From Janibacter hoylei PVAS-1 (GTDB lineage Bacteria; Actinomycetota; Actinomycetes; Actinomycetales; Dermatophilaceae), in contig NZ_ALWX01000004.1 in the NCBI RefSeq assembly GCF_000297495.1, positions 1-64,000 on the forward strand: 64,000 bases of DNA, read 5' to 3'. This document shows, in pieces, positions 28,255 to 55,403 of this stretch (positions are counted from its first letter, which is position 1; each line of letters begins with the position of its first letter). A program made the position numbers and the translations under genes. The notes under the pieces were generated by a model. That model saw nothing but the letters and a program-made list of their open reading frames with translations, had not been told where the DNA came from and made no database searches.

Positions 28255-28350
28255 GCATTTCCCCCAGGGAAATGTCGCCCTGAGCTGGGATTTGCCTAGG
28301 GAAATGCGTCTGGATGGGGCTGTAGTCCGCATCTCCCTAGGGAAATGCGG
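28255..28350. repeat. Three copies of the CCTAGG palindrome family
   Basis: Copies at 28255-28275, 28290-28308 and 28327-28350, each a variant of GCATTTCCCTAGGGAAATGC, placed between the convergent mshC and PAC2 genes. They are imperfect: the first has CCCCCAGGG in the middle, the second lacks the initial CC, the third begins GCATCTCC. They form short hairpins and may act as bidirectional terminators or protein sites. Confidence 0.85.
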
Positions 28351-28387
28351 CGGGTGGGGGGCGGGCGGAAGGGGGAGGAGCGCCGGG

Positions 28388-29245
28388 TCAGCCCTTGCCG
28401 GGGGCGCCGTCGCCCCGGCGGCGAAGGTACCGCTCGAACTCCTTGGCGATCGCATCGCCGCTGGCCTCGGGCAGCTCGGTCGTGTCCTGGGCGCTCTCCA
28501 GGGCGGAGACGTAGTCGGCGACGTCCTCGTCGGTGCGGGCCAGCTCGTCGACGCCCCGCTCCCAGGCCTGGGCCTCGTCCTCGAGGTCGTCGTGGTCGAT
28601 GACGGTGTCGAGCAGGTCCTCGAGCCGCACGAGCATCGCGAGGGTCGCCTTGGGGCAGGGCACCTGCGCGGCGTAGTGGGGGATCTCGGCCCACACGGCG
28701 ATCGAGGCCATCTCGGCCTGACGGGCGCCGTCGGCGACGACACCGGTGATGCCGGTGGGGCCTTCGTAGCGGGCGGGCTCCAGGTCGAAGCGGTAGGCCG
28801 TCGCCTCGTCGTCGCTCGTGCACGACACCGGGATCGGGCGGGAGTGCGGCACGTCCGAGAGCAGTGCGCCGAGGGTGATGACCGTGCGCACCCCGTGCGA
28901 GGCCGCCAGGTCGAGGATCTCGGTGGTGTAGGCCCGCCACCGGAAGGAGGGCTCGGTGCCGACGACGAGGATGACGTCGCGACCGAGGCTGTCCGGGGAG
29001 GCCAGCATGATGCGCGTGGTGTCCCAGTGGATGCCCCGGCCCTGCCCCTGGTTGGTCACCCGCGGGCGGTTGACCTGGAAGTCGTAGTAGTCCTCCGGGT
29101 CGATCGCGGCGACGATCTCGGCGTCCCACAGCGAGGCGAGGTGCCCGACGAGGCGGGAGGCGGCCTCACCCGCGTCGTTCCATCCTTCGAAGGCGCAGAT
29201 CATCACCGGGTCGTGCAGTTCGGGTAGCTCCTCGATCTGGATCAC
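28388..29245 (-). CDS. PAC2-family proteasome-assembly-chaperone-like protein
   Basis: 285 residues. Starts with VIQIEELPELHDPVMICAFE and contains FEGWNDAGEAAS, the signature of the PAC2 family (archaeal/actinobacterial homologues of proteasome assembly chaperone 2). A C-terminal acidic, helical tail (about 225-285) follows. GTG at 29245 is chosen because it starts the conserved block. Convergent with mshC. In actinomycetes a PAC2 gene often lies next to this cluster. Its link to the bacterial proteasome is unproven. Confidence 0.85.
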   Translation of the reverse strand: MIQIEELPELHDPVMICAFEGWNDAGEAASRLVGHLASLWDAEIVAAIDPEDYYDFQVNRPRVTNQGQGRGIHWDTTRIMLASPDSLGRDVILVVGTEPSFRWRAYTTEILDLAASHGVRTVITLGALLSDVPHSRPIPVSCTSDDEATAYRFDLEPARYEGPTGITGVVADGARQAEMASIAVWAEIPHYAAQVPCPKATLAMLVRLEDLLDTVIDHDDLEDEAQAWERGVDELARTDEDVADYVSALESAQDTTELPEASGDAIAKEFERYLRRRGDGAPGKG

Positions 29246-29279
29246 GTCGACCAGCCTACGACGCGTACGGTGGGGCCTC

Positions 29280-29978
29280 GTGAGCACCGACACCACGCGG
29301 TCCGACGTCCGCGACCTGCCCGCCGCGGTCCTGTGGGACATGGACGGGACCCTCGTCGACACCGAGCCCTACTGGATCATCGCGGAGCACGAGCTCGTCG
29401 AGGAGTTCGGCGGCACCTGGACCCACGAGCTGGCGCTCCAGCTCGTCGGCAACCCGCTCCTGGTCTCGGCGCAGTTCATCATCGACAACTCGCCCGTCGA
29501 CCTGCCCGCGGAGCAGGTCGTGCACCGGCTGCAGTCCCGGGTGATCGAGCAGATCGCCGACGAGGTGCCGTGGCGCCCCGGGGCCCGCGAGCTGCTCGCG
29601 GCCTGTCGCGAGCTCGACATCCCGCAGGCGCTGGTGACGATGTCGTGGGCCGATCTCGCCGGTGCGGTCGTCGACGCCACGGAGCCCGGCTCCTTCGGCC
29701 TGGTCGTCTCCGGCGACCAGGTGACCCACGGCAAGCCGCACCCGGAGCCCTACGAGACCGCGGCCGAGCGACTGGGGGTGGAGCCGGCGACCTGCGTCGC
29801 CATCGAGGACTCGCCGACGGGCGTCCGGTCGGCCGCTGCGGCCGGCGTGCCGACCCTCGCGGTCCCTCACGTGGTCGAGGTGCCCGACATCGCGGGCTCG
29901 GTGCGGATCCCGACGCTCACCGGGGTCACCCCCTTCGACCTCATGCCGCTCGCGCTGGGCGCGGTCGCGCGGCCTTAG
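29280..29978 (+). CDS. HAD-superfamily beta-phosphoglucomutase-like phosphatase
   Basis: 232 residues. Motif I WDMDGTLVDTEP (nucleophile and acid Asp), motif II VTMSW, motif III GKPHPEPY and motif IV IEDSPTGVRSA. A four-helix cap lies between motifs I and II, so it belongs to subclass IA, like phosphoglycolate or sugar phosphatases. Start GTG 29280. Convergent with the RecB-like gene, overlapping by 4 bp at their stops. Substrate unassigned. Confidence 0.88.
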   Translation: MSTDTTRSDVRDLPAAVLWDMDGTLVDTEPYWIIAEHELVEEFGGTWTHELALQLVGNPLLVSAQFIIDNSPVDLPAEQVVHRLQSRVIEQIADEVPWRPGARELLAACRELDIPQALVTMSWADLAGAVVDATEPGSFGLVVSGDQVTHGKPHPEPYETAAERLGVEPATCVAIEDSPTGVRSAAAAGVPTLAVPHVVEVPDIAGSVRIPTLTGVTPFDLMPLALGAVARP

Positions 29979-30810
29979 GACCCGGCAGGCGAAGGGGGCG
30001 GCTCGGCCTCCGGGGTGACGATCTCGATCGTCTCCGGCAGGGCCGGCGGCGTGCCGCCGAAGGCGGGGCACAGCGGCTTGAAGTCGCACCAGCCGCACAG
30101 CTTCGACGGGCTCGGCCGGAAGTCGCGCGTGGCGACGGCCTGCTCGATGGCGGTCCAGACGGCGCGGACGTTGCGCTCGAGCGCCAGCAGGTCCGCCTCG
30201 TCCGGCTCGTAGCGCACGATCGTGCCGTCCTTGAGGTAGACGAGCTGCAGCAGGTCGGGGACCCGCCCGGTCCGTCGCCACATGACGAGGCCGTAGAACT
30301 TCATCTGGAAGAGCGCCTTGCCCTCGAAGCCCGCGGCCGGGGTGCGGCCCGTCTTGTAGTCGACGATGCGGACCTGACCCGTGGGCGCGATGTCGACCCG
30401 GTCGATGATGCCGCGCAGCAGCAGTCCGTCGAGCTGGGTCTCGACCTGTACCTCACGTTGAGAGGGCTCGAGCCTCGACGGGTCCTCGAGGGTGAACCAC
30501 CGGTCGACGAGGCGCTCGGCGGCAGCGAACCACGACTCCTCGGAGAGTGACGGGTCGTCGGCGATCAGGTCGGCCAGCTCGGGGCGCTCGGCGACGAGCG
30601 CCGCCCAGCACCCCGGCACGAGGGCGCGGGCTGCCTGCGGCGTGCGCTCGGCCGCCGGCAGGTCGAAGACCTCCTCGAGGACCGCGTGGACGAGGGTCCC
30701 GCGGGCCGCCACCGGGGACGGGACTTCGTCGAGGCGGTCGATCGTCCGCAGGCGAAACTTCAGCGGGCACTGCTTGAAGTCGGCGGCCCGCGAGGGGGAG
30801 AGCGCGGCCC

Positions 30811-30814
<4 letters not shown>
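29975..30814 (-). CDS. RecB/Cas4-like PD-(D/E)xK exonuclease domain protein
   Basis: 279 residues. [17 protein letters not shown] at the N-terminus gives the first cysteine; the nuclease core reads GIIDRVD ... VRIVDYKTG; and [10 protein letters not shown] supplies the remaining three cysteines of an iron-sulfur cluster. This is the stand-alone RecB-family nuclease of actinobacteria, about a quarter of a full RecB. Its start lies 4 bp inside the end of metH on the same strand, so they are co-transcribed, although no functional link is obvious. Confidence 0.85.
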
Positions 30815-36751
<5,937 letters not shown>

Positions 36752-36811
36752 GGCGAAGGGGGACACTGGGACCCAGAGCGCCGTCACCTCGGCGGGAAGG
36801 GAGCACGACAG

Positions 36812-38471
36812 ATGACGACAGAGCCCACCCCCCAGGACGTGCGGGCACTGCAGGACAAGCTCACCCACCAGCAGTCGCAGATGGCGAGCGTGGCCTCGCA
36901 GAACGAACGACTCGTGCGGACCCTCAAGGATGCTCGCCAGCAGATCGTCACCCTGCGTGAGGAGATCGAGCGCCTGGCCCAGCCCCCTTCGTCCTACGCG
37001 GTGGTCGTTGACGTCCACGACGACGGCAGCGCCGACGTGCTGAGCGGGGGCCGCAAGATGCACGTCGCGGTCTCGCCGGCGGTGGAGTCGGGGGGAGCTC
37101 GGGGTCGGCCGCGAGGTGCGGCTCAACGAAGCGATGAACATCGTGTCGGTGCACCCGGAGGACGTCGCCGGCGAGGTGGTCGTCGTCAAGGAGGTGCTCG
37201 ACGAGGATCGGCTGCTCGTCCTCATGCGCCAGGACGAGGAGCGGGTCGTGCGCCGCGGCGCCCGGGTCACGGGCACGCAGGTGCGGGTCGGTGACGCCGT
37301 CCTCGTCGACCAGCGCAGCAACATCGCGGTCGAGCGGATCCCGCGGGCGGAGGTTGCCGACCTGGTCCTCGAGGAGGTCCCCGACCTCGGCTACGACGAC
37401 ATCGGGGGGCTGAGCGAGCAGATCGAGGCGATCCGCGATGCCGTCGAGCTGCCCTACCTGCATGCCGACCTCTACGAGCGGCACCAGCTCAAGGCGCCGA
37501 AGGGGGTCCTGCTCTACGGTCCTCCCGGCAACGGCAAGACGATGATCGCCAAGGCGGTCGCGGCCTCGCTGGCCCGCAAGGTGGCCGAGCGCACCGGTCA
37601 GGAGAGCGCGACGGCCTACTTCCTCAACATCAAGGGCCCGGAGCTGCTCAACAAGTACGTCGGCGAGACCGAGCGGCACATCCGCCTGATCTTCCACCGG
37701 GCCCGGGAGAAGTCGAGCGACGGCACCCCCGTCGTCGTCTTCTTCGACGAGATGGACAGCCTCTTCCGCACCCGCGGCTCGGGGGTCTCCTCGGACGTCG
37801 AGACGACGATCGTCCCGCAGCTGCTCGCCGAGATCGACGGCGTGGAGGGCCTGGACAACGTCATCGTCATCGGGGCGACCAACCGCGAGGACATGATCGA
37901 CCCCGCGATCCTGCGGCCGGGGCGGCTCGACGTGAAGATCAAGATCGAGCGCCCCGACGCCGAGGGCGCGCGGGACATCTTCACCAAGTACCTCACCGCG
38001 GACCTGCCGCTGCACCCGGAGGACCTCGAGGAGCACGACGGCGACCGGCAGGCGACGGTCGACGGGATGATCGAGGCGGCCGTGGACCACATGTACGCGG
38101 AGTCCGACGACAACCAGTTCCTCGAGGTGACCTACCAGGGCGGCGACAAGGAGATCCTCTACTTCAAGGACTTCAACTCGGGCGCGATGATCCAAAACAT
38201 CGTCGACCGCGCGAAGAAGTCCGCGATCAAGGACTTCCTCGGCACCGGCACCGAGGGTGTGCGCGTGGGGCACCTGCTCGACGCCTGCGTCGCGGAGTTC
38301 AAGGAAAACGAGGACCTGCCCAACACGACCAACCCGGACGACTGGGCGCGGATCTCGGGCAAGAAGGGCGAGCGGATCGTCTACATCCGCACCCTCATCG
38401 GCGGCAAGTCCGGGGGCGCGGAACCGGGGCGCTCGATCGACACTGGCTCGCGCACCGGCCAGTACCTCTGA
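36812..38471 (+). CDS. arc: Proteasome-associated AAA ATPase ARC (Mpa), +1 frame break
   Basis: About 552 residues repaired. Order: N-terminal coiled coil (residues about 8-55, captures Pup), two OB folds, AAA module with [19 protein letters not shown] and the arginine-finger region [15 protein letters not shown]. It ends GQYL, the C-terminal tail that docks into the 20S core. An extra G in the run 37090-37095 (6 vs 5) breaks the frame after the first OB fold. AAGGGAG precedes the ATG at 36812. It unfolds pupylated substrates for PrcBA. Confidence 0.95.
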
Positions 38472-38488
38472 CGGCCGGGGCGGTCCCC

Positions 38489-39098
38489 TCAGCGGTCCTC
38501 GGGCGAGCGGGGCTGGCGGATCCCGAGCTCGTCGACGACCCGGTCGCGGTCGGCCGGGTCGACGAGCCCGCGCCCGCGGGTCTCGTCGCGCGGTCCCTCG
38601 AGCGACTCGAGGTCGAGCGGGTCGCCGACGCGGGTGTGCTGCGTGGGCACCCGGCCGCGACGCTGGCTGCGCGGGCGCTCCTGCGGGGCGGGGGGTGGGG
38701 CGGCGCCGATCGATCGCCCACAGGACGAGGCGCCAGCCCACGAGGGTGACCCCGAGGAAGATCGTCGCGACGATGACGAAGGGCAGGGCCGTGCCCTGAC
38801 CGACCATGTCGCGCAGGGCCATCCCGCCGAAGACCGTGGCGATCCAGACCGTCAGGCCGTGCCACCAGCGGGTCGGCCAGGTCTGGCTCGACAGGAGGAC
38901 GACGAGCCAGCCGAGAGCCAGCCCGCCGAGGAAGGGCCAGGCCGTGTCCCACCAGCCGGCGGGGTCGAGCGGCTCCTCGTGGGTGCGCCGCCCGATGAGC
39001 GTGAAGACGGCGACGACGAGCACGTCGAGGCCGGCCGCGAGGGCGGTCCGGCCCCGCGGGGCGGTGAGGGGCTCGTCCCGCTCACGCACGGCCGTCAC
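38489..39098 (-). CDS. DUF3054 membrane protein, +1 frame break
   Basis: About 202 residues. Four TM segments lie in residues about 18-135 (LDVLVVAVFTLIGRR, FLGGLALGWLVVLL, GLTVWIATVFGGMAL, LPFVIVATIFLGVTLVGW), then a polar C-terminal region that reads REDETR-like acidic/basic sequence ending RQPRSPEDR. A G run at 38690-38695 (6 vs 5) breaks the frame at the membrane/tail junction. The N-terminal part fits DUF3054, a family of unknown function. The first codons overlap the esterase gene upstream. Confidence 0.72.
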
Positions 39099-40086
39099 CC
39101 CCGACGAGGTGCCGTCGGATCTCGGTGACGAGCTCGTGGCGGCTCTGCGCGCCGGCTCGGGCCACCCCCGGGAAGCTCGCGAAGCCGTGCGGCAGCCCGA
39201 GGTAGTTGGTGACGCGCACCTCGACGCCGACGGCGCGCAGGGCCTCGGCGTAGCGCAGGCCGTCGTCGCGGATCGGGTCGAGGTCGGCGGTCTGCACCAG
39301 GGCCGGGGCGACTCCGGTGACGTCGCCGAAGAGCGGCGAGACGATCGGGTCGGTGTAGGCGACCGCGTCCTGCGCGTCGCCGATGTAGAGCGTGCGGAAG
39401 GCGATGATCTTGTCCTCGGTGAGGATCGCCCCGTCGGCGTGCTCCCTGATCGAGGGCGAGGCCATCGTCAGGTCCGTCGCAGGGTAGATCAGCGCCTGGT
39501 GGCGGATCACCGGCTCGCCGGCACTCGTGCGCAGGTCCCGCAGCTGCTGGGCGACGATGGCGGAGAGGTTGCCGCCGGCGGAGTCGCCGCACAGACCGAT
39601 CCGGTCCCGGTCGACGCCGTGGTCGGCATGGTCGTGGAGCCAGCGCACGACGTCGATCGCGTCGTACGAGGCGGTAGGCGCCCGGTGCTCGGGCGCCATC
39701 CGGTAGTCGACGCTCACGACGACCGCGTCGAGCTCGGCCGCGAGGTGGCCGCACAGCGGGTCGTACATCCGGGTCGACCCCTGGACCCAGCCGCCGCCGT
39801 GGAGGTAGACGAGGAGGGGGCGGTCCTCCCTTCGTCCGGCCGGCGTGTACCAGCGCAGGGGGATGCTCGCCCCGTCGCGGGCCGGCGCGGAGCTCTCGTC
39901 GATCGTCACGCCCGAGGGCACCCGCCCGGTGATCCACGAGAAGGGGGGAGTGGTCGGGTAGACCCTGGCGCGGGCTGCGCGGATGTCGTCGAGCGTGGCG
40001 TCGACGATCGAAACCCGACCGATGTTGTCGAGGAAGGTCGTCAGGGCCGCGACGAGCGGGGGCAGGCCGGGGTAGGGGCGCTTCAC
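39082..40086 (-). CDS. Alpha/beta hydrolase (HSL-family esterase) 1
   Basis: 334 residues. Hormone-sensitive-lipase family: oxyanion HGGGW (about 94), nucleophile GDSAGG (about 166), Asp near 250-260 (LVQTADLDPIRDDG) and His in PHGFASF. Substrates are short-chain esters or acylated steroids. 44-50% apparent similarity in layout to the adjacent second esterase indicates tandem duplication; I estimate this by eye. Overlaps the next esterase by 4 bp and DUF3054 downstream. Lies on the minus strand, opposite to the proteasome genes. Confidence 0.88.
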   Translation of the reverse strand: MKRPYPGLPPLVAALTTFLDNIGRVSIVDATLDDIRAARARVYPTTPPFSWITGRVPSGVTIDESSAPARDGASIPLRWYTPAGRREDRPLLVYLHGGGWVQGSTRMYDPLCGHLAAELDAVVVSVDYRMAPEHRAPTASYDAIDVVRWLHDHADHGVDRDRIGLCGDSAGGNLSAIVAQQLRDLRTSAGEPVIRHQALIYPATDLTMASPSIREHADGAILTEDKIIAFRTLYIGDAQDAVAYTDPIVSPLFGDVTGVAPALVQTADLDPIRDDGLRYAEALRAVGVEVRVTNYLGLPHGFASFPGVARAGAQSRHELVTEIRRHLVGGDGRA

Positions 40087-41051: not shown

Positions 41052-41084
41052 CGCCCCATTCCAGCATGCGGCCTCCTCGTCCGA

Positions 41085-41260
41085 TCCCTGAGGAGGTCTC
41101 GGGCTGGCTGGTGCGCGCATCTCCCTAGGCAAATTCGCTTTCCTCCGGTTCCTGAGCAGGTCGCCCAGCGAGACCTCCCCCCCGATCCCTGAGGAGGTCG
41201 CCCAGGAGACCCGCCCCCCCGGTCCCTGAGGAGGTCGCCCAGCGACCGTCTCGAAGGGAT
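41085..41260. repeat. Hairpin repeats (39-bp family) and one CCTAGG palindrome
   Basis: Reverse-complement copies of the 754-914 family: CCCTGAGGAGGTCGCCCAGC at 41222-ish and two further degenerate copies, each with inverted repeat GGTCGC/GCGACC replacing GGCCGC/GCGGCC. At 41114-41137 lies one GCATCTCCCTAGGCAAATTC copy of the CCTAGG family. The region is between divergent esterase and GNAT genes. No coding signal was seen. Confidence 0.8.
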
Positions 41261-43364: not shown

Positions 43365-43397
43365 GGTCGGGGCACGACCCGTAGCGAAGGAGCAACG

Positions 43398-44416: not shown

Positions 44417-45108
44417 CGCAGCCACCCTTCTACGTCTCCCCGGAGCAGGTCATGGCCGACCGGGCGGAGTTCGCCCGCGCCGGTATCGCCCGCGGCCGCT
44501 CGGTCGTCGTCCTCGGCTACGACGATGGCATCCTCCTCGTCGCCGACAACCCGAGCAGCCGCTCGCTCAACAAGATCAGCGAGATCCACGACCGCATCGC
44601 CTTCGCCGGGGTCGGCAAGTACAACGAGTTCGAAAACCTGCGGGTCGCCGGCATCCGCTACGCCGACCTGCGGGGCTACTCCTACGACCGCTCCGACGTC
44701 ACGGCCCGTGCCCTGGCCAATGCCTACGCGCAGACGCTCGGCACCGTCTTCACCCAGGACCAGAAGCCCTACGAGGTCGAGATCGTCGTCGCCGAGGTCG
44801 GTCGCGCCGTCGCCGACGACCGGATCTACCGCCTCACCTACGACGGGTCCGTCGCCGACGAGCGCGGCTGGGTCGCGGTCGGCGGCGACAGCGCCCGGCT
44901 CAACGAGTTGCTCGACGAGCAGTGGCGGCCGGGCATGGACCTCGAGGACGCCCACCGGCTCGCTGTGGAGGTCCTCTCCGGCTCGGCCGAAGGGGGCGAC
45001 GCCGGCGGTCTGCTGCCGACCGACGCCCTCGAGGCCGCAGTGCTGGAGCGGCACCGTCCCCGGCGGTGCTTCCAGCGGGTGCGTGGCTCCCTTCGCGGCG
45101 ACGGTTAG
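44413..45108 (+). CDS. prcA: 20S proteasome subunit alpha
   Basis: 231 residues starting [20 protein letters not shown], the gate region and first helix of PrcA. Lacks a processed Thr, as expected of alpha subunits. EHxYDR-type structural sequence [15 protein letters not shown] follows. Stop is 9 bp before the pafA GTG. The alpha rings gate entry and receive the ARC tail. Confidence 0.95.
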
Positions 45109-45117
45109 CCTGCAGAC

Positions 45118-46506
45118 GTGGACAGGCGCATCTTCGGCATCGAGACCGAGTTCGGCATCACGGCGGTCTCGGACGGTCAGCGGCGGCTCACGCCCGACGA
45201 GGTGGCGCGCTACCTCTTCCGCAAGGTGGTCACCTGGGGCCGCTCGAGCAATGTCTTCCTGCCCAACGGGTCCCGCCTCTACCTCGACGTCGGCAGCCAC
45301 CCGGAGTACGCGACCGCCGAGTGCGACGACCTGACCACGCTCATCGCCCATGACCGGGCCGGTGAGCTCGTCGTGCAGGACCTCGTCGACGACGCCCAGG
45401 CACGGCTCGAGGAGGACGGCGTCGCGGGGGAGATCTACGTCTTCAAGAACAACGTCGACTCCGCGGGCAACTCCTACGGCTGCCACGAAAACTTCCTCGT
45501 GCAGCGCACCTCGGACTTCGCGTCCGTTACCGACGGGCTGCTGCCCTTCCTCATCACCCGCCAGCTGATCGCCGGCACCGGCAAGATCATGCCCTCACCC
45601 CGCGGCGCGCGGTTTTCGGTCAGTCAGCGAGCCGACCACATCTGGGAGGGGGTGTCGTCGGCGACGACCCGCTCGCGGCCGATCATCAACACCCGCGACG
45701 AGCCGCACGCCGACGCGGAGCACTACCGCCGGATGCACGTCATCGTCGGTGACTCGGCGATGACCGAGACGACCACGCTGCTCAAGGTGGGCGCCGCCCA
45801 CCTCGTGCTGCGGATGCTCGAGGAGGGCGTCGCCCTGCCGGACATGGCGCTCGACAACCCGATCCGGGCGATCCGCGACATCAGCCTCGACCCTACCGGA
45901 CGCACCCCGGTCAAGCTCGCCGACGGGCGGCGGATGAGTGCCCTCGAGATCCAGGGGGAGTACCTCGCCCGGGCCACGGAGCACGCGGCCCGCGAGGGCA
46001 TCGACGACGAGGTGAGCACACGGGTGCTCGACCTCTGGGAGCGCACGCTCGACGCGATCGAGCGTGACGACCTGGTCGCCGTCGGCACCGAGATCGACTG
46101 GGTCATCAAGTACCGCCTGCTCGACGCCTACGCGAGCCGCCACGGGCTCGACCTCGACGACCCGCGTCTGGCCCAGCTCGACCTCGCGTACCACGACATC
46201 AACCCGCGCCGCGGCGTCCACCACGTGCTGCAGCGCGCGGGCAAGATCGCGCGCGTCGTCACCGACGAGCAGATCCGCGAGGCGGTCGACGTGCCGCCGC
46301 AGACGACGCGTGCCCGGCTGCGCGGCGACTTCGTCCGCACGGCACGCGAGCACGGGCGTGATGTCACCGTCGACTGGGTGCACCTGAAGATCAACGACGA
46401 GGCGCAGCGCACCGTGCTGTGCAAGGACCCCTTCCGCGCGGTGGACGAGCGGGTCGACCGGCTGCTCGAGCTGCTGGCGTCGCGGCCCACCCCGGCGGGC
46501 CCCTGA
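45118..46506 (+). CDS. pafA: Pup ligase PafA
   Basis: 462 residues, GTG start. Begins [15 protein letters not shown] and includes [20 protein letters not shown] and [18 protein letters not shown], the glutamine-synthetase-like ATP site. PafA attaches Pup, through the terminal Glu, to substrate lysines. It lacks the Dop loop. Follows prcA by 9 bp. The catalytic Asp lies in the [10 protein letters not shown] region. Confidence 0.96.
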
Positions 46507-46576
46507 GTCAGGCAGTGTCCAGACTCGGTGGTTAGGCTGCCGGGGCCAACGCGTTTCCCACACATCGAGGTTGATC

Positions 46577-47626
46577 GTGCCGAAGTCCCCCCGACTGACC
46601 ACCGCTGCCGCGGTGTCCGCCGCCGCCGTGCTCGCGCTCAGTGCCTGTGGCGGTGACTCCGACACCGACGCGACGAGTGACGGCAAGACCGACGCGTCGG
46701 CCTCGTCGGCCTCGTCGTCCGAGTCCTCGCCGGTGACCCTCGCGGACCCCAAGCCGGAGGACACCAAGAAGGTCGAGGACATCGAGATCACGGAGGCCAA
46801 GGGCAAGAAGGCGCCGTCGATCTCGATCGAGGACAAGCCGCTGAGCGTCACCGAGACGACGCGCAAGGTGCTCGACGAGGGGTCCGGCGAGACCCTGCCG
46901 GACGACGCCTACGTCGAGGTCGACCTCGCCATGTTTTCCGGCAAGGACGGCAAGGCCATCGAGGGCTCCGAGACGTACACGAGTGCCCCGATCGTCCTCT
47001 CCCTCGGCAACGAGGGCGCCCTGCCGGGCCTCGTGAAGTCGATCAAGGGGCAGAAGGTCGGCGCCCACGGCGTCTCCGTCATGCCGCCCAAGGACCTCTT
47101 CGGCGACCAGGGCATGCCCCAGTACGGCGTCGACGGCAAGGACAACCTCGTCCTCGTCTACGACGTGCGCGGCATCATGCCGCAGGAGGCGAAGGGCAAG
47201 GCCGTCACGCCCAAGGACAAGACCCTGCCAACCGTGAAGTGGAAGGCCGACGCGCCCGCCGACATCACCATCCCCAAGGACGCGAAGAAGCCGAAGAAGC
47301 TCGTCACCGAGAAGCTCATCGAGGGCACCGGCAAGACGGTCAAGAAGGGCGACCAGGTGTACGTCAGCTACACCGGCGTGAAGTTCAAGAGCGGTGAGGT
47401 CTTCGACAGCTCCTTCAAGGAGGGCCGCGGGCCCTTCCCCTTCGTCGTCGGTCAGCAGGGCGTCATCCCTGGCTGGGACAAGGCCGTGGAGGGCTCCAAG
47501 GTCGGCGACCGTCTGCTCGTCGTCGTCCCGTCCAAGGAGGGCTACGGCGAGCAGGGCACCCCGGACGGCTCGATCAAGCCCAACGAGGACCTCGTCTTCG
47601 TCGTCGACATCCTCAGCGCACCCTGA
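46577..47626 (+). CDS. FKBP-type peptidyl-prolyl isomerase lipoprotein
   Basis: 349 residues. GTG 46577, 6 bp after a GAGG. Signal peptide with lipobox LALSACGG (lipid Cys about residue 25), then a Thr/Ser/Asp-rich linker and two FKBP-like domains. The second (GDQVYVSYTGVKFKSGEVF ... FFVDIL-type end) keeps the canonical hydrophobic pocket residues; the first is more divergent. The two-domain membrane-anchored FKBP after pafA matches the SCO1639-like position. It probably assists folding of exported proteins. A link to proteasome function is unproven. Confidence 0.88.
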   Translation: MPKSPRLTTAAAVSAAAVLALSACGGDSDTDATSDGKTDASASSASSSESSPVTLADPKPEDTKKVEDIEITEAKGKKAPSISIEDKPLSVTETTRKVLDEGSGETLPDDAYVEVDLAMFSGKDGKAIEGSETYTSAPIVLSLGNEGALPGLVKSIKGQKVGAHGVSVMPPKDLFGDQGMPQYGVDGKDNLVLVYDVRGIMPQEAKGKAVTPKDKTLPTVKWKADAPADITIPKDAKKPKKLVTEKLIEGTGKTVKKGDQVYVSYTGVKFKSGEVFDSSFKEGRGPFPFVVGQQGVIPGWDKAVEGSKVGDRLLVVVPSKEGYGEQGTPDGSIKPNEDLVFVVDILSAP

Positions 47627-47667
47627 CCCGACCCCACCCCCGCCACACCCACGACAAGGAGAGCCAC

Positions 47668-48054
47668 ATGCCCTTCGACCCCAGCACCACCAAGCCCGAG
47701 ATCGACTTCCCCGAGGGCGAGGCGCCCACCGACCTCGTCGTCGAGGACATCACCGTCGGTGACGGTGCCGAGGTGACCCCCGGGTCGCCCATCCAGGCGC
47801 ACTACGTCGGCGTCGCCCACTCGACCGGTGAGGAGTTCGACGCGTCGTGGAACCGCGGCGCCCCGCTCGCCTTCACCGCCGGCATCGGCCAGGTCATCAA
47901 GGGCTGGGACGACGGTCTCCTCGGCATGAAGGAGGGTGGTCGCCGCAAGATCACCATCCCGCCGCACCTCGGCTACGGCGACCGCGGCGCCGGCGCTGCC
48001 ATCAAGGGTGGCGAGACGCTGATCTTCGTCGTGGACCTCGTCAAGGTCGGCTGA
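47668..48054 (+). CDS. Cytosolic FKBP-type peptidyl-prolyl isomerase
   Basis: 128 residues, no signal peptide. Standard FKBP fold: ITVGDGAEVTPGSPIQAHYVG, DASWNRGAPLAFTAGIGQVI (Trp and Ile pocket), GWDDGLLGMKEGGRRKITIP and GYGDRG. It isomerises Xaa-Pro bonds. Start ATG with AAGGAGA. Probably co-transcribed with the lipoprotein FKBP (41 bp gap), matching the pafA-FKBP-FKBP pattern also known in Streptomyces. Confidence 0.92.
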   Translation: MPFDPSTTKPEIDFPEGEAPTDLVVEDITVGDGAEVTPGSPIQAHYVGVAHSTGEEFDASWNRGAPLAFTAGIGQVIKGWDDGLLGMKEGGRRKITIPPHLGYGDRGAGAAIKGGETLIFVVDLVKVG

Positions 48055-48086
48055 CCCCGACCTCACCTCTGCTCCACCCGCCCCCG

Positions 48087-48171
48087 GCGCATCTCCCCAG
48101 GGAGGTGTCGCCGGGGGCCGCATCTACATGGGGGAATGCGGCTGGCGTGCGCATATCCCTAGGGAGATGCG
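48087..48171. repeat. Three copies of the CCTAGG palindrome family
   Basis: Copies at 48087-48109 (CCCCAGGG centre), 48119-48140 (CATGGGGG centre) and 48149-48171 (CCCTAGGG centre) between the convergent FKBP and DUF3866 genes. They vary in the arm but keep GCATNTCC...AATGCG. Confidence 0.8.
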
Positions 48172-48176
48172 GGAGT

Positions 48177-49274
48177 TCAGGGGAGCAGTGCGGCGGCGTG
48201 CCGGCCGGCCAGGGCCGCGGTGACGAAGGGGGTGACGTCCTCCGTCGCACTCCGGCCCATGCTCGTCAGCGGGACCGGGCTCGTGGCGAGCGCTTCGGCG
48301 ACCCCGTCGAGGGGCAGCGGTACCAGGTGCGGCGCGCCGGCCGACGTGCTGATCGCCGTCTCGAGCTGCTCACGGACATCCGGCCAGGGCGCATCGGTCG
48401 AGTCCGCGACGACGACGTCGGCCCCACCGAGCAGCGCCCGCGAGAGCACGGTGGCCGTGTGGTGCGAGAGTCCGACGTGCCGTGGGCGCGGGTCGCTGCC
48501 GGAGACCCGCGGCACGACGACGCCCCGCCCGCGCAGGACGTGGACGGCGTTGAGCACGTCGCCGGTGGACAGCCCGGACCAGCCCCACGTCGTCGACGAG
48601 CCGGCATTGCCCGGCCCCTGGGCGACGACGACGACGTCGCAGCGGAGGACGTGCCGGGCGGCGAGGAGCGCCGAGTGCACCGTGATCGCCTCGTGCTCCC
48701 CGCCGTAGGCCTGCCCTGCCGTGATCGTCGTCGCGAGCCAGCCGGCCTCGACGAGCCGGGCCGCGCTGTCGGACAGGGCGAAGGGGAGTGCCGCCGAGTC
48801 GGTCATGACGTACCCGACTCGCGCCTGCGGCGCGACCGACCGGATGCCGGCGAGGACGGCTGGCAGGGCCGAGTGCAGCTCGGCCACGACGACCGGCAGC
48901 CCGCGCAGGTCGCCGCCGGCGATGTCGGGGTGCTCGCGCATCGTCTCGTGGTGGGGTGACTCCTGCTCCTCGAGGGTCTGGACCATCTGCTGCAGCGGTG
49001 TGTAGCGCGCCTTGACGATGTGCCCGGGGCCGTCTGCCGGGTCGGCGGGCGGGCGGGTGACGTCGGCGACGACGAGCGCCATGCCGCCCGTCCCGAGACC
49101 TCGGCGCAGGGCCGAGATGTTGAGCAGCACCTCGTCGCCGGGCTCCGGAGAGCCGACGACCTCGGTGAGGGCCAGCGCGGGGACGTCCGCCCCGTCGACC
49201 TCGACGCGCAGCCGGACCGCGCCGCGCCGGGCACGGGTCACCTCGCGGACCACGCCGCTGCGCCAGTGGATCAT
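48177..49274 (-). CDS. DUF3866 protein
   Basis: 365 residues from ATG 49274 (MIHWRSGVVREV). No membrane segment or known catalytic motif. YTPLQQMVQTLEEQESPHH and VVVAQGPGNAGSSTTWGWSG are conserved-looking blocks typical of DUF3866 in actinobacteria. Always near pafBC in this type of locus, but its function is unknown. An upstream in-frame start (49322) overlaps the pafB start and is rejected. Convergent with the FKBP gene. Confidence 0.82.
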   Translation of the reverse strand: MIHWRSGVVREVTRARRGAVRLRVEVDGADVPALALTEVVGSPEPGDEVLLNISALRRGLGTGGMALVVADVTRPPADPADGPGHIVKARYTPLQQMVQTLEEQESPHHETMREHPDIAGGDLRGLPVVVAELHSALPAVLAGIRSVAPQARVGYVMTDSAALPFALSDSAARLVEAGWLATTITAGQAYGGEHEAITVHSALLAARHVLRCDVVVVAQGPGNAGSSTTWGWSGLSTGDVLNAVHVLRGRGVVVPRVSGSDPRPRHVGLSHHTATVLSRALLGGADVVVADSTDAPWPDVREQLETAISTSAGAPHLVPLPLDGVAEALATSPVPLTSMGRSATEDVTPFVTAALAGRHAAALLP

Positions 49275-49312
49275 GTGCGGCAGGTTAGCCTCAGCGTGAC
49301 GAAGGGAGCGAC

Positions 49313-50299
49313 GTGGCAGCACCCAACACCCCCGCGGCCAAGACGGAGCGACTGCTCAACCTGACGATGAGCCTGCTCTCGTCGCGGATGCCGTTGCCCA
49401 AGCAGCGGATCCGTCGCATGGTTGAGGCCTACCAGCTCGTCGAGTCCGACGAGGCCTTCGACCGGATGTTCGAGCGCGACAAGGAGGACCTGCGCGCCAT
49501 GGGCATCCCGCTCGTCACCGAGGACATCGGCTCCTTCGAGGACGAGCAGGGCTACCGCATCGACCAGCGCGACTACGCCCTGCCGCCCGTCGAGCTCACC
49601 GCCGACGAGCGCGCCGTCGTCGGGCTCGCGAGCCGCGCCTGGGCGCACGCGACGATGGCCGGCACCGCCGCGACGGCCTGGCGCAAGGTCGCGGCCGACG
49701 ACGAGGTGGGGGAGGACCCCTTCGCCGGTCTCGAGCCGCGGCTCGGTGGCGCGGAGCCGGCCTTCGAGCCCCTCAAGGACGCCGTGCTGTCGGGGGTCGC
49801 CGTCCGCTTCGACTACGCCCGCCCCGGGACCGGCGGAGCCTCCCCGCGCCGGGTCGAGCCCTGGTACCTCACCGCGTGGCACGGTCGGTGGTACCTCGTC
49901 GGCCACGACCTCGACCGCGAGGCTGCGCGCGTCTTCCGCCTGTCGCGGATCACCTCGACGGTCACGGTCACCCGCGAGTCGATCACCGTCGCCGCGCCCG
50001 ACGACGTCGACCCGGTGCGCATGATCGCCGCCGTCGACGGCCGCGAGCCCCAGCCGCTGCCGGCGGTGCTGCGCGTGCGCGTCGGCACGGGCCACGGGCT
50101 GCGCCGACGCGCCGTGCGCGTCGAGGACGCCGAGCCGCAGTGGGACCGCCTGCACCTCGAGCACGGTGACCTGCGCTGGCTCGCCGACGAGATCGCCAGC
50201 CACGGCGCCGACGTCGTCGTCGAGGAGCCCACCGAGCTGCGCCAGGCCGTCGTCTCCCGGCTGCGGGCCGTCGCCACCCACGAAGGGAGCCCCCGATGA
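49313..50299 (+). CDS. pafB: WYL-domain regulator PafB
   Basis: 328 residues. GTG start with GAAGGGAG in the ribosome-binding position. Winged-helix N-terminus (SLLSSRMPLPKQRIRRMV), then the WYL domain (RVEPWYLTAWHGRWYLVGHD, W-Y-L at about 184-186) and WCX extension. PafB works with PafC as a DNA-damage transcription activator. Overlaps pafC by 4 bp (ATGA). Confidence 0.93.
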   Translation: MAAPNTPAAKTERLLNLTMSLLSSRMPLPKQRIRRMVEAYQLVESDEAFDRMFERDKEDLRAMGIPLVTEDIGSFEDEQGYRIDQRDYALPPVELTADERAVVGLASRAWAHATMAGTAATAWRKVAADDEVGEDPFAGLEPRLGGAEPAFEPLKDAVLSGVAVRFDYARPGTGGASPRRVEPWYLTAWHGRWYLVGHDLDREAARVFRLSRITSTVTVTRESITVAAPDDVDPVRMIAAVDGREPQPLPAVLRVRVGTGHGLRRRAVRVEDAEPQWDRLHLEHGDLRWLADEIASHGADVVVEEPTELRQAVVSRLRAVATHEGSPR

Positions 50300-51258
50300 G
50301 TCGTCAGGGTGTCGAGTCCGCGACGAGCCGCGTCCAGCGGCTGCTGACGATGGTCCCGTGGCTCGTGAGCCGCCAGGGGATCGAGATCTCCGCGGCGGCC
50401 GCCGGGCTGGGGATCAGCGAGGAGCAGCTGACCAAGGACCTCGACCTGCTCTTCATGTGCGGGTACGGGCAGATGCCCGACGAGATGATCGAGGCGAGCT
50501 ACGAGGGCGGCCGCGTCTTCGTCACCAATGCCGATGCCATCGCCCGACCGCTCCGGCTCACCGTCGACGAGGCGATCTCGCTGATCGTCGGGCTGCGCTC
50601 GCTCGCCGCGAGCGGCGCCGGCGACTCCAGCGCGGTCGAGCGTGCCCTGGCCAAGCTCGAGGAGGCGACCGGGGCGATCCCCGGGGTCGACCGGGTGGTG
50701 GTCGTCGAGGACGACACCGAGGTCGGACGCACCACAGCGGCCCTGCGCGACGCCGTGACCGCCGGCCGCCGCGTGCACCTGTCCTACGTCGTCCCGAGTC
50801 GCGACGAGCGCACCGAGCGCGATGTCGACCCGATGCGGCTGGCCCACGTCGACGGTCACTGGTACCTCGAGGGCTGGTGCCACCGGGCGCAGGACGTGCG
50901 CCTCTTCCGCGTCGACCGGATCGAGGACCTCGAGGTGCTCGACGTGCCGGCCCGCCTGCCCGAGGGCATCACCGGTCGCGACCTCAGCGCCGGCGCCTAC
51001 CAGGCCAGCGACGCCGACCTGCCGGTCACCCTGCGCCTCGCGCCGTCCGCCCACTGGGTCGCGGAGTACTACCCGGTGACATCTCGCGAAACGGCGGGTG
51101 AAGATCTGCTCGTCACGCTCCCGACGAGCAATGAGGGATTCCTCCGCCGTCTCGTGCTGCGGCTGGGCGGCGGAGCGCAGGTCGTCGCGCCGGAGTCAGC
51201 TCGAGCTGCCGTCGAGGGAGCCGCCGAGCAGGCCCTGAGCGGCTACGACGCACACTGA
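50296..51258 (+). CDS. pafC: WYL-domain regulator PafC
   Basis: 320 residues, N-terminal HTH (LVSRQGIEISAAAAGLGIS) followed by WYL domain (PMRLAHVDGHWYLEGWCHR). Pairs with PafB, whose product it resembles in layout. GAAGGGAG occurs in the ribosome-binding position. Followed 70 bp later by tatA. Confidence 0.93.
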   Translation: MSRQGVESATSRVQRLLTMVPWLVSRQGIEISAAAAGLGISEEQLTKDLDLLFMCGYGQMPDEMIEASYEGGRVFVTNADAIARPLRLTVDEAISLIVGLRSLAASGAGDSSAVERALAKLEEATGAIPGVDRVVVVEDDTEVGRTTAALRDAVTAGRRVHLSYVVPSRDERTERDVDPMRLAHVDGHWYLEGWCHRAQDVRLFRVDRIEDLEVLDVPARLPEGITGRDLSAGAYQASDADLPVTLRLAPSAHWVAEYYPVTSRETAGEDLLVTLPTSNEGFLRRLVLRLGGGAQVVAPESARAAVEGAAEQALSGYDAH

Positions 51259-51328
51259 CGCCTCACGGCTCGCGCACAGGGTCGAGGCATACACTGACAA
51301 CGTTGGTCGCCACCTGAAAGGTCTTGCC

Positions 51329-51598
51329 ATGCCCAATCTGGGTCCCATGGAAATCATCCTCATCCTGCTCGTCATCCTGCTGCTCTTCGGCTTCAAGAAG
51401 CTCCCGGACGCCGCGCGCAGCGTCGGCAAGTCCGCCCGCGTCTTCAAGGCCGAGGTCAGCGAGATGAAGGAAGAGGACCGCCAGCGCGAGGAGGCCAGGA
51501 AGCAGGGGCAGGCCGGCAGCACCCCGACCGCCGACGGCAACGCCGTCATCGACGAGGCCAAGCCCCGCACGGACAACCAGTCCGGCCCGGTGGCCTGA
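51329..51598 (+). CDS. tatA: Sec-independent protein translocase TatA
   Basis: 89 residues. One N-terminal TM (LGPMEIILILLVILLLFGF) with the FGFKKLPDAARSVGKSARVFK amphipathic helix, then a polar tail. TatA forms the Tat pore for folded proteins. Upstream at about 51289 a TACACT -10-like box is present. Followed by tatC (26 bp). Confidence 0.92.
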   Translation: MPNLGPMEIILILLVILLLFGFKKLPDAARSVGKSARVFKAEVSEMKEEDRQREEARKQGQAGSTPTADGNAVIDEAKPRTDNQSGPVA

Positions 51599-51624
51599 GC
51601 CACCCCCCTTCGTCCACAACCCGC

Positions 51625-52452
51625 ATGGCTCGTAGCCCACGCACGCCCAAGGACCCCGAGGGGCGGATGCCGCTCAAGGCGCACCTCATCGAGTTCCGCA
51701 ACCGGCTGATGGTCTCGGCCGCGGCGATCGTCCTCGGCGCGATCGTCGCGTGGATCATCTACCCGACGGTCTACGAGCAGCTCACCCTGCCCTTCACGGA
51801 GTACAAGAGGGCCAACCCCGACAGCGTCGTCACGCTGAACTTCGGCAACGCGACCTCGGCCTTCACCACCCAGCTCGGGCTCTCCCTCTTCACCGGGGTG
51901 ATCCTCGCCAGCCCGATCTGGGTCTGGCAGATCTGGGCCTTCATCCTCCCCGGGCTGACCAAGCGTGAGAAGCGGATGTCGATCGGCGTCTTCGCGACGG
52001 CGCTGCCGCTCTTCCTCGGCGGCTGCTACTTCGCCTACGTCACCCTGCCCAAGGCGCTGCTCATCCTCTTCGGCTTCACGCCGGACGACGACAAGTCGAG
52101 CAACATCCAGCAGGCGAGCGACTACTTCACCTTCATCACCCGCTTCATCCTCGCCTTCGGCCTGGCCTGGCTGCTGCCGGTCTTCCTCGTCGGTCTGTGC
52201 GCCATCGGCGTGCTCTCGGGCAAGACGCTCAAGAAGTCCTGGCGGGTGGCGATCCTGCTGATCTTCATCGCCTCCGCGGTCATCACGCCGACGCCGGACC
52301 CCTTCACGATGTTCCTGCTCGCCGGTCCGCTGTGCCTGCTGTACTTCATCGCGCTCGGCGTCTGCCTGCTCATCGACAGGCGGCGGGTCGAGGCCGGCGA
52401 GGAGCCGGACTGGTCGGACCTGCCGGACGACCAGGCCTCACCGCTGCGCTGA
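51625..52452 (+). CDS. tatC: Sec-independent protein translocase TatC
   Basis: 275 residues and six TM segments. N-terminal HLIEFRNRLMVSAAA matches TatC, including the Glu of the signal-peptide site, and later FILPGLTKREKRM and a P-loop IITPTPDPFTMF. Binds twin-arginine signals with TatB/TatA. tatB is absent nearby, as in other actinobacteria. Confidence 0.94.
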   Translation: MARSPRTPKDPEGRMPLKAHLIEFRNRLMVSAAAIVLGAIVAWIIYPTVYEQLTLPFTEYKRANPDSVVTLNFGNATSAFTTQLGLSLFTGVILASPIWVWQIWAFILPGLTKREKRMSIGVFATALPLFLGGCYFAYVTLPKALLILFGFTPDDDKSSNIQQASDYFTFITRFILAFGLAWLLPVFLVGLCAIGVLSGKTLKKSWRVAILLIFIASAVITPTPDPFTMFLLAGPLCLLYFIALGVCLLIDRRRVEAGEEPDWSDLPDDQASPLR

Positions 52453-52475
52453 CGCCGCTGGCATAGCGTGGGGGC

Positions 52476-55305
52476 ATGTCCTCGCCCGCCGACCGATATG
52501 CCGCCGCCCGCCGTCGCAGCAGGGGCCAGCTGGCCACCTTCGCCGACTCGCTGGGGTTCGAGCTCGACCCCTTCCAGCGCGACGCCTGCGAGGCCGTGGA
52601 GGCCGGGCACGGCGTGCTCGTCGCCGCGCCGACCGGCGCGGGCAAGACGATCGTCGGCGAGTTCGCAGTCCACCTGGCGCTGGTCCGGGGGCAGAAGGCC
52701 TTCTACACGACGCCGATCAAGGCGCTGAGCAACCAGAAGTACCACGAGCTCGCCGCCCGCCACGGCCACGACAACGTCGGGCTGCTCACCGGCGACACCT
52801 CGATCAACGGCGAGGCACCGATCGTCGTCATGACGACCGAGGTCCTGCGCAACATGATCTACGCGGGGTCGACGACCCTCGACACCCTCGCCTTCGTCGT
52901 CATGGACGAGGTGCACTACCTCGCCGACCGCTTCCGCGGCGCCGTGTGGGAGGAGGTCATCATCCACCTGCCGCGCTCGGTGCAGGTGATCTCGCTCTCG
53001 GCGACGGTGAGCAATGCCGAGGAGTTCGGTGACTGGCTCGCCGAGGTGCGCGGCGGTACCGAGGTCATCGTCTCCGAGGTGCGTCCAGTCCCGCTGTGGC
53101 AGCACATGCAGGTGGGTCGCGAGGTCCATGACCTCTTCGTCGACGAGGCCGGCGCCGCCGAGGGTTCGCCGGCCAAGGTCAACCCCGAGCTCCTCGACGC
53201 GATCCGCTCGCGGCTGCGCTCCACCGGTGACGAAGGGGGACCCGGTCGCGGTGGTCGAGGTGGGCACGGCCGCGGTGGTCGTGACCGGCGCGGTGGCCGC
53301 GACCGTCGCGACGCGCGGGGTCGGGGTGAGCACACCGCGCCGGGTCCGCGTGGCGGGGGAGGCCGCTTCGGTGGCGCCGCGTCGCGCACCGAGGTCATCC
53401 GCGAGCTCGACCGCGACGGGCTGCTGCCGGCCATCACCTTCATCTTCAGTCGGGCGGGGTGCGAGGGCGCCGTCGGGCAGCTGCTCGGTAACGACGTGCG
53501 CCTGATCTCCGAGCGAGAGGGCGAGCGCAACCGGCGCACGGTCGAGGAGCGGGCCGCGGTGCTCGCGGGGGAGGACCTCGACGTCCTCGGCTACCACCAG
53601 TTCGTCGAGGGGCTGTCGCGAGGATTCGCGGCCCACCACGCCGGGATGCTCCCGCTCTTCCGCGAGGTCGTCGAGGAGCTCTTCACCGCCGGCCGCATCC
53701 GGGCGGTCTTCGCCACGGAGACCCTGGCCCTGGGCATCAACATGCCGGCGCGCACGGTCGTGCTCGAAAAGTTGGTGAAGTTCAACGGCGAGTCCCACGT
53801 GGAGATCACCCCGGCGGAGTACACGCAGCTGACCGGCCGCGCGGGCCGGCGCGGCATCGACGTCGAGGGGCACGCCCTCGTCGTGTGGTCGCGGGGGATG
53901 GACCCGATGGCCGTGGCCGGGCTGGCCCAGACCCGCACCTACCCGCTGCGCTCGAGCTTCCGCCCGACGTACAACATGGCGGTCAACCTCGTCGCCCAGG
54001 TGGGGCGGCAGACGGCCAAGGAGGTGCTCGAGACCTCCTTCGCGCAGTTCCAGGCAGACCGGGCGGTCGTCGGGCTGGCGACCCAGGTCCGCGACCAGCA
54101 GGAGTCGCTGCAGGCCTACGCCGAGGCGATGCACTGCCACGTCGGTGACTTCCGCGAGTACGCCGCGCTGCGGCGACGCATCACCGATCTCGAGAAGGAG
54201 GGCTCGCGCAAGCGCAGTGCCAACCGGCGGGCGGAGATCGCCGTGTCGCTCGAGGAGCTGCGGGTCGGTGACATCGTCCGGCTCGGCGGCCGACGCGCCG
54301 GCCTGGCGGTCGTCATCGCCCCGCCACGCTCGTACAAGGGGGAGTCGAGCGCACCGACGGTGCTCACCGAGGGCAAGCAGGTGCGACGCCTCACCGCCGC
54401 CGACCTCGACCGGCCGCTGGCCCCCTTCGGCCGTCTGGCGATCCCGAAGGGATTCAACCCCAAGTCGGCCAAGCAGCGGTCCGACCTCGCGGCGACGCTG
54501 CGGATCAAGGCGCCGCACGAGGACGCGCCGAGCGTGCGGCGGGAGGCCGTCGAGACGGCGAAGGGGGAGGACGAGCGGATCGAGCAGCTGCGCCGCGAGC
54601 TCAAGGCACACCCCTGCCACCAGTGCCCCGAGCGCGAGGAGCACGCCCGTTGGGCCGCGCGGTGGTGGAAGCTCAAGCGCGAGACCTCCGCGCTGCAGCG
54701 CAAGGTCGAGCTGCGCACCAACTCGGTGGCGCAGACCTTCGAGCGCATCTGCACGGTGCTCGTCGGCCTGGGGTACCTCGGTGAGGACGGCGAGAGCGTC
54801 ACCGACCTCGGCACCCGACTTCGGCGGCTGTACACCGAAAAGGACCTGCTCACCGCCGAGTGCCTGCGCGGGGGGCGCGTGGACGCGGCTGGACCCGGCC
54901 GAGCTCGCGGCGGTCGTGTCGATGCTCGTGCACGAGCCCCGACGCGACGAGCACGACGCCTTCCCGCGGATGCCCACGGACGGCGTGGCCGACGCCTGGC
55001 AGGACATGGTGCGCCGCTGGAGCGAGCTCGAGGAGCTCGAGGGCGCGCACGCCCTGCAGCAGACCGGCGAGCCGGACGGTGGGCTGGCGTGGGCGGTGCA
55101 CCGGTGGGCCAGCGGCCGGCGCCTCGACGAGGTGCTCTCGGGCTCGGACCTGACCGCGGGCGACTTCGTCCGGCGGTGCAAGCAGGTCGTCGACCTGCTC
55201 GACCAGATCGGAGACGCGGCCCCGCAGCCGCACCTGCGCGGCGTGGCCCGCACGGCCGTCGACAAGGTGATGCGGGGGGTTGTCGCCGCCGACCGCCTCG
55301 ACTGA
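52476..55305 (+). CDS. helY: DEVH-box helicase HelY with RGG-rich insert, +1 frame break
   Basis: About 942 residues repaired. Walker A APTGAGKTI (about 50), DEVHYL (about 145), SATVSNAEEFGDW (SAT motif) and a C-terminal accessory region like Ski2/Mtr4 helicases. Between the two RecA domains, residues about 251-300 form a Gly/Arg/Asp-rich insert with GRGG and RGG repeats. A six-G run at 54870-54875 (five expected) breaks the frame near residue 798, after LRGG. ATG at 52476. Follows tatC by 23 bp, as in Mycobacterium/Streptomyces. Confidence 0.93.
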
Positions 55306-55320
55306 CCCCGTCCCCACCCC

Positions 55321-55403
55321 GCATTTCCCTAGGCAAATCACCAGGCTGGCGGTCATTTCCCTAGGGAAATACGGGGCCTGTGCGCATTTCCCTAGGGAAA
55401 TGC
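55321..55403. repeat. Three copies of the CCTAGG palindrome family
   Basis: Copies at 55321-55339, 55353-55371 and 55383-55403. The last contains the perfect 20-bp palindrome GCATTTCCCTAGGGAAATGC. They lie between the convergent helY and exonuclease genes. Confidence 0.9.

Follow-up and report, generated by a model that had tools for sequence, protein, structure and literature searches.

The first 64,000 nucleotides of contig NZ_ALWX01000004.1 of Janibacter hoylei PVAS-1 (the window; its genome is G000 below) contain ten copies of a palindrome whose perfect form is the 20-mer GCATTTCCCTAGGGAAATGC. We found that these copies belong to a clustered, intergenic repeat family whose units lie at the 3′ ends of genes, mostly between convergent ones. 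Other Janibacter species carry units built on the same scaffold in different letters, here called dialects, and at several gene gaps the array positions are conserved. Most neighbouring units are spaced by about 31.5 or 42 bp, which is three or four helical turns, arrays lengthen by duplication, and the two arms of a unit do not covary. The reading we favour, at close to an even chance, is that a dimeric DNA-binding protein would coat the phased arrays and that these would act as boundaries at gene ends, with protein, coating and function all being what we infer.

A clustered palindrome family at gene ends

The ten window copies had been picked out in a sequence-only reading, with starts at most 3 bp off those of the 20-mer, and all ten proved real. 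Seven match GCATTTCCCTAGGGAAATGC with at most three mismatches (0.00 expected from 100 shuffles). The remaining three (28256, 48089 and 48120) are more degenerate, yet they keep the register of the good copies, and a weight matrix built from the family scores them at 13.8, 17.1 and 15.5 bits, respectively. Across the whole genome (3.14 Mb, 122 contigs) there were 199 copies of the 20-mer at up to three mismatches and 190 of the 18-mer at up to two, with none for the reversed control in either search, demonstrating that the family is neither a product of chance nor confined to the window. The weight matrix gave 42 units, and the reversed matrix one, over 463 kb consisting of the window and 20 long stretches, which were drawn from contigs already known to bear sites and two of which were placed over sites. 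Of a further set of 20 stretches, 17 were centred on exact G000 sites.

The intergenic and clustered placement seen in the window held more widely, as rows of one to five units at gene 3′ ends. Among 37 arrays with 107 units we found 4 single units, 8 rows of two, 14 of three, 10 of four and 1 of five, stepping mostly by 31 or 32 bp and sometimes by 41–43 bp. Adjacent units were more alike in direct orientation than permuted ones (17.63 versus 17.20 of 20 positions; 0 of 5,000 permutations), indicating that arrays grow by tandem duplication. Pairing of first with last units within arrays was not above permutation (p = 0.18 for outer arms, 0.24 for whole units).

Genes were called with a custom codon-usage caller written for this analysis, not a published one. 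When the 35 arrays flanked on both sides by called genes were classified, 22 lay in convergent, 9 in tandem and 4 in divergent gaps, compared with 69, 292 and 67 of the 428 background gaps counted across the window and long stretches, which bears out the concentration between convergent genes that the window had suggested. The Fisher test of this bias (p = 2e-4) was made on the arrays of the window and long stretches, 9 of 16 being convergent. All nine tandem-gap arrays sit 1–32 bp past a stop codon. Only 1 of 40 sampled units fell wholly within a called gene (55321–55340, in the called frame 52476–55364), and that frame overruns the real helicase stop at 55305 past a frameshift.

The window copies and their gaps are as follows (no strand is assigned, shown as a point).

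28256..28275, strand. : array A unit 1, degenerate, extra C in the centre, weight-matrix score 13.8
28288..28307, strand. : array A unit 2, GGATTTGCCTAGGGAAATGC, 2 mismatches, 32 bp from unit 1
28329..28348, strand. : array A unit 3, GCATCTCCCTAGGGAAATGC, 1 mismatch, 41 bp from unit 2
Gap of array A: tRNA-synt_1e-type gene (class I, C type) (+) and PAC2 (−), convergent
41117..41136, strand. : single unit, 3 mismatches
Gap of the single unit: Abhydrolase_3 (−) and GNAT acetyltransferase (+), divergent
48089..48108, strand. : array B unit 1, weight-matrix score 17.1
48120..48139, strand. : array B unit 2, degenerate, weight-matrix score 15.5
48151..48170, strand. : array B unit 3, GCATATCCCTAGGGAGATGC, 2 mismatches, array spacing 31/31
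Gap of array B: FKBP (+) and DUF3866 (−), convergent
55321..55340, strand. : array C unit 1, 3 mismatches
55353..55372, strand. : array C unit 2, 2 mismatches
55384..55403, strand. : array C unit 3, perfect GCATTTCCCTAGGGAAATGC, 0 mismatches, array spacing 32/31
Gap of array C: DEAD-DSHCT helicase (+, stop codon ending at 55305) and 5′-3′ exonuclease (−), convergent

The helicase gene beside array C (52476–55305) has a frameshift at about 54800–54900 that puts its helicase domains and DSHCT domain in different frames; either the assembly is wrong here or the gene is broken. Beside the single unit, a short repeat resembling CCCTGAGGAGGTCGCCCAGCGACCGTCTCGAAGG occurs several times at 41080–41260; the word CTGAGGAGGTC was found five times in the 463-kb sample, three of them there. 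Elsewhere in the window, a tandem gap (757–874) contains four − strand copies of CGTCTCGAA with a period of exactly 39 bp.

One scaffold, many dialects

The comparison covered 16 Janibacter genomes, including G000, and a family set of 186; J. indicus is G005 and J. anophelis G011. With up to one mismatch, the 18-mer occurred 121 times in G000 and two, two and one times in three congeners; the remaining 54 of the 58 genomes searched lacked it. Absence from relatives therefore holds for the 18-mer itself (3 of 57 relatives, one or two copies) and fails for the underlying pattern, since units of the relatives fit one scaffold, GCA-N3-CC-N4-GG-N3-TGC, which is in excess in 8 of the 16 Janibacter genomes. 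The other dialects read as follows.

J. anophelis (G011): GCATTTCCCCGGGGAAATGC
J. indicus (G005): GCATTGCC-CTAC/GTAG-GGCAATGC
G010: GCATTGCCCTAGGGCAATGC
G012 (164 exact copies) and G015 (46 exact copies): GCATYTCCTTRAGGTCGTGC
G008: GCAGGACCCTAGGGTCCTGC

Scaffold counts against the reversed control were 86/54 in G000, 160/54 in G005, 117/72 in G007, 207/57 in G008, 199/51 in G010, 150/54 in G011, 279/64 in G012 and 83/36 in G015. The other eight Janibacter genomes were not above the control, and none of the 170 family genomes outside Janibacter showed a clear excess, G068 alone being slightly above it (28/23). The pattern GCATTKCCNNNNGGMAATGC was present in 10 of the 186 genomes, nine of them Janibacter and the tenth with one copy. 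The seven other array-positive Janibacter use mainly letters different from those of G000, partly in the same gene gaps, and J. anophelis has five adjacent pairs that mix dialects, spaced 42 bp in four cases and 46 bp in the fifth. At about 63.7 kb of G009 contig C2 (L215:3692) there is a GCACGACC-ATCC-GGTCGTGC dyad with matching outer arms, which is the G012-type half-site in palindromic form, and an eight-match array of G012 (L188:2474) mixes linkerless, abutting 20-bp steps with 31-bp steps.

Location was similar in two relatives. In J. indicus, where many of the stretches were chosen over known sites, the 20 arrays that include an exact-arm unit lay in 14 convergent, 5 tandem and 1 divergent gaps. 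The 29 arrays of G012, counted after dropping those without any unit at up to two mismatches, lay in 14, 13 and 2, with 41 of 209 background gaps convergent; the distance to the stop codon was looser there than in G000.

Mapping of orthologous gaps revealed that positions are partly kept while letters change. The FKBP/DUF3866 gap holds units in all seven mapped array-positive species and in G015, in several dialects, and is 13 bp long in G009. Units occur in the exonuclease gap of G000, G007, G010, G011, G012 and G015, and none were seen there in G005, G008, G009, G002 and six other congeners. A third gap (window 29978) has units in G005, G010, G011 and G012, not in G000, G007 or G008, and one inexact near-scaffold match in G009. 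The synthetase/PAC2 gap is occupied in G000, whereas the 14 relatives (of 15) in which it could be read have no units there. Nine further convergent gaps had no array in the mappable array-positive species, bar one near-scaffold match in a 789-bp gap of G008. Over these 13 convergent gaps and seven species, several gaps being mapped in only two to four of them, there were 37 co-occupied species pairs versus at most 26 in 20,000 shuffles, and 27 versus at most 21 without G000. The co-occupancy table was typed by hand, with the 789-bp G008 gap set to missing and the G010 exonuclease gap filled in separately; G009, which has one near-scaffold match in each of two gaps, one of the two an exact dyad, stands outside the seven species. 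Shared positions are either ancestral sites that were rewritten or hot spots that were refilled independently. In the gap orthologous to window 757–874, G012 has eight near-scaffold matches (one mismatch, none exact) and G010 has one; these are perhaps the CGTCTCGAA-type repeat.

The exact 20-mer had no match in a genome-contig collection that may omit near records. Freeing its two central bases gave matches in 30 stretches: 19 of J. anophelis, 1 of J. indicus and 10 from unrelated organisms, each of these with a single site. A virus or plasmid origin was rejected: the 18-mer was in no viral contig, no plasmid matched, and phage matches covered 26 bp only (E 0.3, 9 records). The looser pattern occurred in 31 viral contigs, at one site each, and the G012 dialect in one. 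Rfam gave nothing at gathering score for 28000–56000. Literature searches for the 18-mer and the 14-mer core turned up no paper, and searches for Janibacter repeats, like wider ones, gave none that fitted among the results listed; within the reach of these searches the family appears undescribed.

A separate word of the genus, CGAAGGGGG (often GNCGAAGGGGG; 164 of the 214 have the G), is found 214 times in the 463 kb of G000, where a fourth-order Markov model predicts 15.9 and the reversed word is found 3 times. The relatives showed 132 occurrences in 205 kb (G008), 53 in 140 kb (G012), 24 in 60 kb (G009) and 9 in 20 kb (G013), with 0–1 reversed. It stands at 34 places in the window on both strands (for example, 6318, 12194, 29990, 36754, 48224, 55457 and 59684); 155 occurrences lie inside called genes and 32 within 40 bp of a called gene's 3′ end. 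It resembles a Chi-like or uptake-type word of the genus.

Unit letters, helical spacing and rival explanations

Changes at positions 1–8 of the unit numbered 45, 54, 0, 1, 38, 4, 21 and 0 in the 107 units (214 half-sites), a set collected at up to five mismatches, and the centre was CTAG in 101 of the 107. Letters fixed at positions 3, 4 and 8 (0–1 changes in 214) and variable at 1, 2 and 5 suggest that the unit behaves like the DNA site of a dimer. Transcribed RNA hairpins that end transcription both ways or protect mRNA 3′ ends are a rival explanation. They would fit arrays at gene 3′ ends, folding far better than shuffles, dyads with 18–19-bp arms in four species at the FKBP gap (three of them perfect), and the inverted arrangement, CTAC...GTAG, of 11 of 22 neighbouring pairs counted in J. 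indicus. Against them, we found that one-sided changes (133 pair positions) far outnumbered both-sided ones (15, with 16.0 expected if independent), that pairing was restored in just 5 of the 15 double changes, and that arm pairing within units was 7.64 of 9 versus 7.68 with permuted arms (p = 0.80). On the transcribed strand of tandem gaps, one-sided changes gave 5 G–U, 11 A–C and 20 other pairs. The unit halves of G012, GCA-TYT-CC and GCA-CGA-CC, have middles that are not complementary, in 164 exact copies; neighbouring units there share orientation in 84 of 86 cases, and its tandem-gap arrays show no sense preference (5 sense, 8 antisense). No terminator-like site with a T-run was called in 47000–56500, which holds two arrays. 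A hairpin terminator as the main constraint, including the bidirectional terminator proposed from the window alone, was rejected on the arm-covariation, G–U, G012-orientation and terminator-scan results, and we consider the wider hairpin explanation quite improbable.

Spacing between units followed the helical repeat. For 87 spacings from four genomes the Rayleigh R was 0.845 at 10.5 bp; 20,000 sets drawn uniformly from the 22–52 bp searched never gave more than 0.347. The set consisted of listed pairs only, with 50 of 53 from J. indicus reduced to one per array (42) and, unreduced, 20 of 36 from G010, 11 of 11 from J. anophelis and 14 of 14 from G000; it was drawn without those of G007 and G008 (unlisted) and the three of G009 and G012. 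Among the pairs listed, first spacings in the 42 J. indicus arrays were 31–32 bp (19) or 41–43 bp (23), with none else within 22–52. The G000 spacings were 31–32 bp (12), 41 and 43, and those of J. anophelis 32 bp (2) and 41–44 bp (9). The 86 pairs of G012 stood at 20, 30–32, 40 or 42 bp, with none at 21–29 or 33–39.

The main rival to a protein-bound array is a selfish or semi-domesticated repeat of the repetitive extragenic palindrome (REP) or bacterial interspersed mosaic element (BIME) kind, copied by a putative transposase and tolerated where it does least harm, 3′ of stop codons and between convergent genes. Its conserved letters would be those recognized by the enzyme and its dialects successive waves, and we regard it as possible, at clearly less than an even chance. 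As described in PMC3733652 and PMC2817692, REP, BIME and REPIN families are 20–40-bp extragenic palindromes of more than 100 copies, species-specific, placed 3′ of genes and in convergent gaps, in pairs or regularly spaced clusters; the size, copy number and location of the Janibacter units match the REPs of the former source, and their families are likewise species-specific. One clean filled/empty pair, with about 78 bp in J. indicus absent from G008 and no clear target duplication (the other five aligned pairs were not clean), and the PAC2-gap array, present in G000 and in none of 14 readable relatives, also fit this rival. Against it, the Y1_Tnp/RAYT domain (PF01797) was found in 0 of 16 genus genomes by a search that was positive in 5 of 14 known control genomes, and within 6 bp of 212 unit ends there were no GTAG and two CGTC tags, so a RAYT-driven form of the mobile REP, one of the roles first proposed, is not supported. 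CGTC-type REPs likewise lack a dedicated transposase according to PMC3733652. IS200/RAYT-type enzymes are held to recognize hairpins (PMC2817692), whereas G000 units show no arm covariation and the G012 dialect is not self-complementary. Adjacent Janibacter units also spread through tandem duplication, stand in direct orientation in G012 and keep helical-step spacing, and the same gaps are occupied, above chance, in species with different dialects. With tag, transposase and paired stem all tested and none found, we do not file the arrays as REPs, though they may still work like one.

A species-specific tag of self DNA, resembling the DNA uptake sequences (DUS) of Neisseriaceae, would explain dialects around a conserved core and inverted pairs at gene ends, both of which are features of DUS in PMC3630211. 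The Janibacter units number about 200, not thousands, almost never lie in genes (1 of 40 sampled), and are 20-bp dyads in phased arrays, which are not expected of such tags. We think this explanation highly unlikely; the DUS dialects of that source are the best parallel for the evolution of the units, not for their anatomy.

A chromosome-organizing site of the matS or parS type would likewise be a palindrome in many scattered intergenic copies. Among the sites listed, however, units span 13 kb to 2.95 Mb of one single-contig relative (3.55 Mb) and 97 kb to 2.97 Mb of another (3.23 Mb), half of the genus has no excess, and the letters are not conserved, which tells against the matS-like role suggested earlier and leaves it most unlikely. 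The sites of matS/MatP, SlmA and Noc are scattered palindromes bound by a dimeric protein; they are conserved across genera and regional, and the Janibacter palindromes are neither. Palindromic or repeated protein sites with a fixed period near whole helical turns are found in F-plasmid sopC and in iteron arrays. These occupy one plasmid locus, unlike the Janibacter arrays, which we estimate at a hundred chromosomal gene-end loci.

A candidate protein-coated boundary

In the dimer-coated reading, the 20-bp unit would be a dyad-symmetric site for a dimeric, or heterodimeric, sequence-specific protein with one subunit on each half-site. Two to five units, mostly 31–32 or 41–43 bp apart, would lie on one face of the helix, and adjacent dimers could thus touch and coat the array. 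Placed directly 3′ of stop codons, mostly between convergent genes, a coated array might serve as a boundary independent of orientation, either as a roadblock that limits read-through, as an insulator that separates the supercoiling of adjacent transcription units, or as both. Direct tandem duplication lengthens arrays, and the N3 in the middle of the half-site and the N4 at the centre differ by species as GCA...CC and some array positions persist. Drift of letters at kept positions would be expected if the specificity of the protein drifts and its sites follow.

A number of observations weigh against this reading. Arrays occupy just 9 of 69 convergent gaps across the window and long stretches, so that they are no general gene-ending device or terminator, and G009 is almost without arrays, so any role must be dispensable. 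The spacing has exceptions (34 and 65 bp, once each, in G000, and a single 46 in J. anophelis), is looser in G010 (30–32 bp in 11, 37 in 1 and 40–45 in 8 of the pairs listed), and gives a broad peak at about 10–11.5 bp in the period scan. Linkers of one length class resemble each other (about 0.50 versus 0.35 when shuffled), also after trimming and removal of one subclass, and a few founder lengths inherited by duplication could therefore mimic helical phasing. Inspection of the predicted proteins beside eight arrays (six in divergent gaps and two long ones) gave no convincing autoregulated DNA-binding gene; one TetR-like gene near a J. indicus array, named by reading its predicted protein, was not convincing. 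No array-binding protein was found, gene content between genomes not having been compared, and the position-specific constraint could also mirror what a mobilizing enzyme can copy.

Further points of this kind come from folding and symmetry. All six arrays folded as RNA gave z from −3.0 to −8.4; palindromic repeats fold well regardless of role. Long dyads, which a hairpin predicts, were found in the FKBP gap:

G008 (L152:1433–1472): perfect dyad with 18-bp arms
J. indicus (L151): perfect dyad with 18-bp arms
J. anophelis (L147): perfect dyad with 18-bp arms
G007 (L150): 19-bp arms with one mismatch

Their outer base pairs vary by species, except for AACCCTGCA, which is common to J. indicus and G008. 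Neighbouring J. indicus units were inverted in the 11 of 22 pairs noted above, CTAC always being first, in a scan whose single low-scoring 'units' are mostly chance.

A bolder version, which we think rather unlikely, is a chromosome-wide 'boundary code' in which a clade-specific protein would coat phased arrays at perhaps 100 gene ends and shifts in its specificity would rewrite the kept arrays into a new dialect. If true, bacteria would have an equivalent of the rapidly evolving proteins that bind satellite DNA. The usual explanations for palindromes dispersed in bacterial genomes are RNA hairpins and REPs that RAYT transposases copy. In Janibacter the tests of both came out against them, yet positions are partly kept, letters are species-specific and spacing is helical. 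If a cognate protein exists, the arrays would offer a tractable example of a protein and hundreds of DNA sites evolving together, and possibly a protein-based means of separating convergent genes in GC-rich bacteria.

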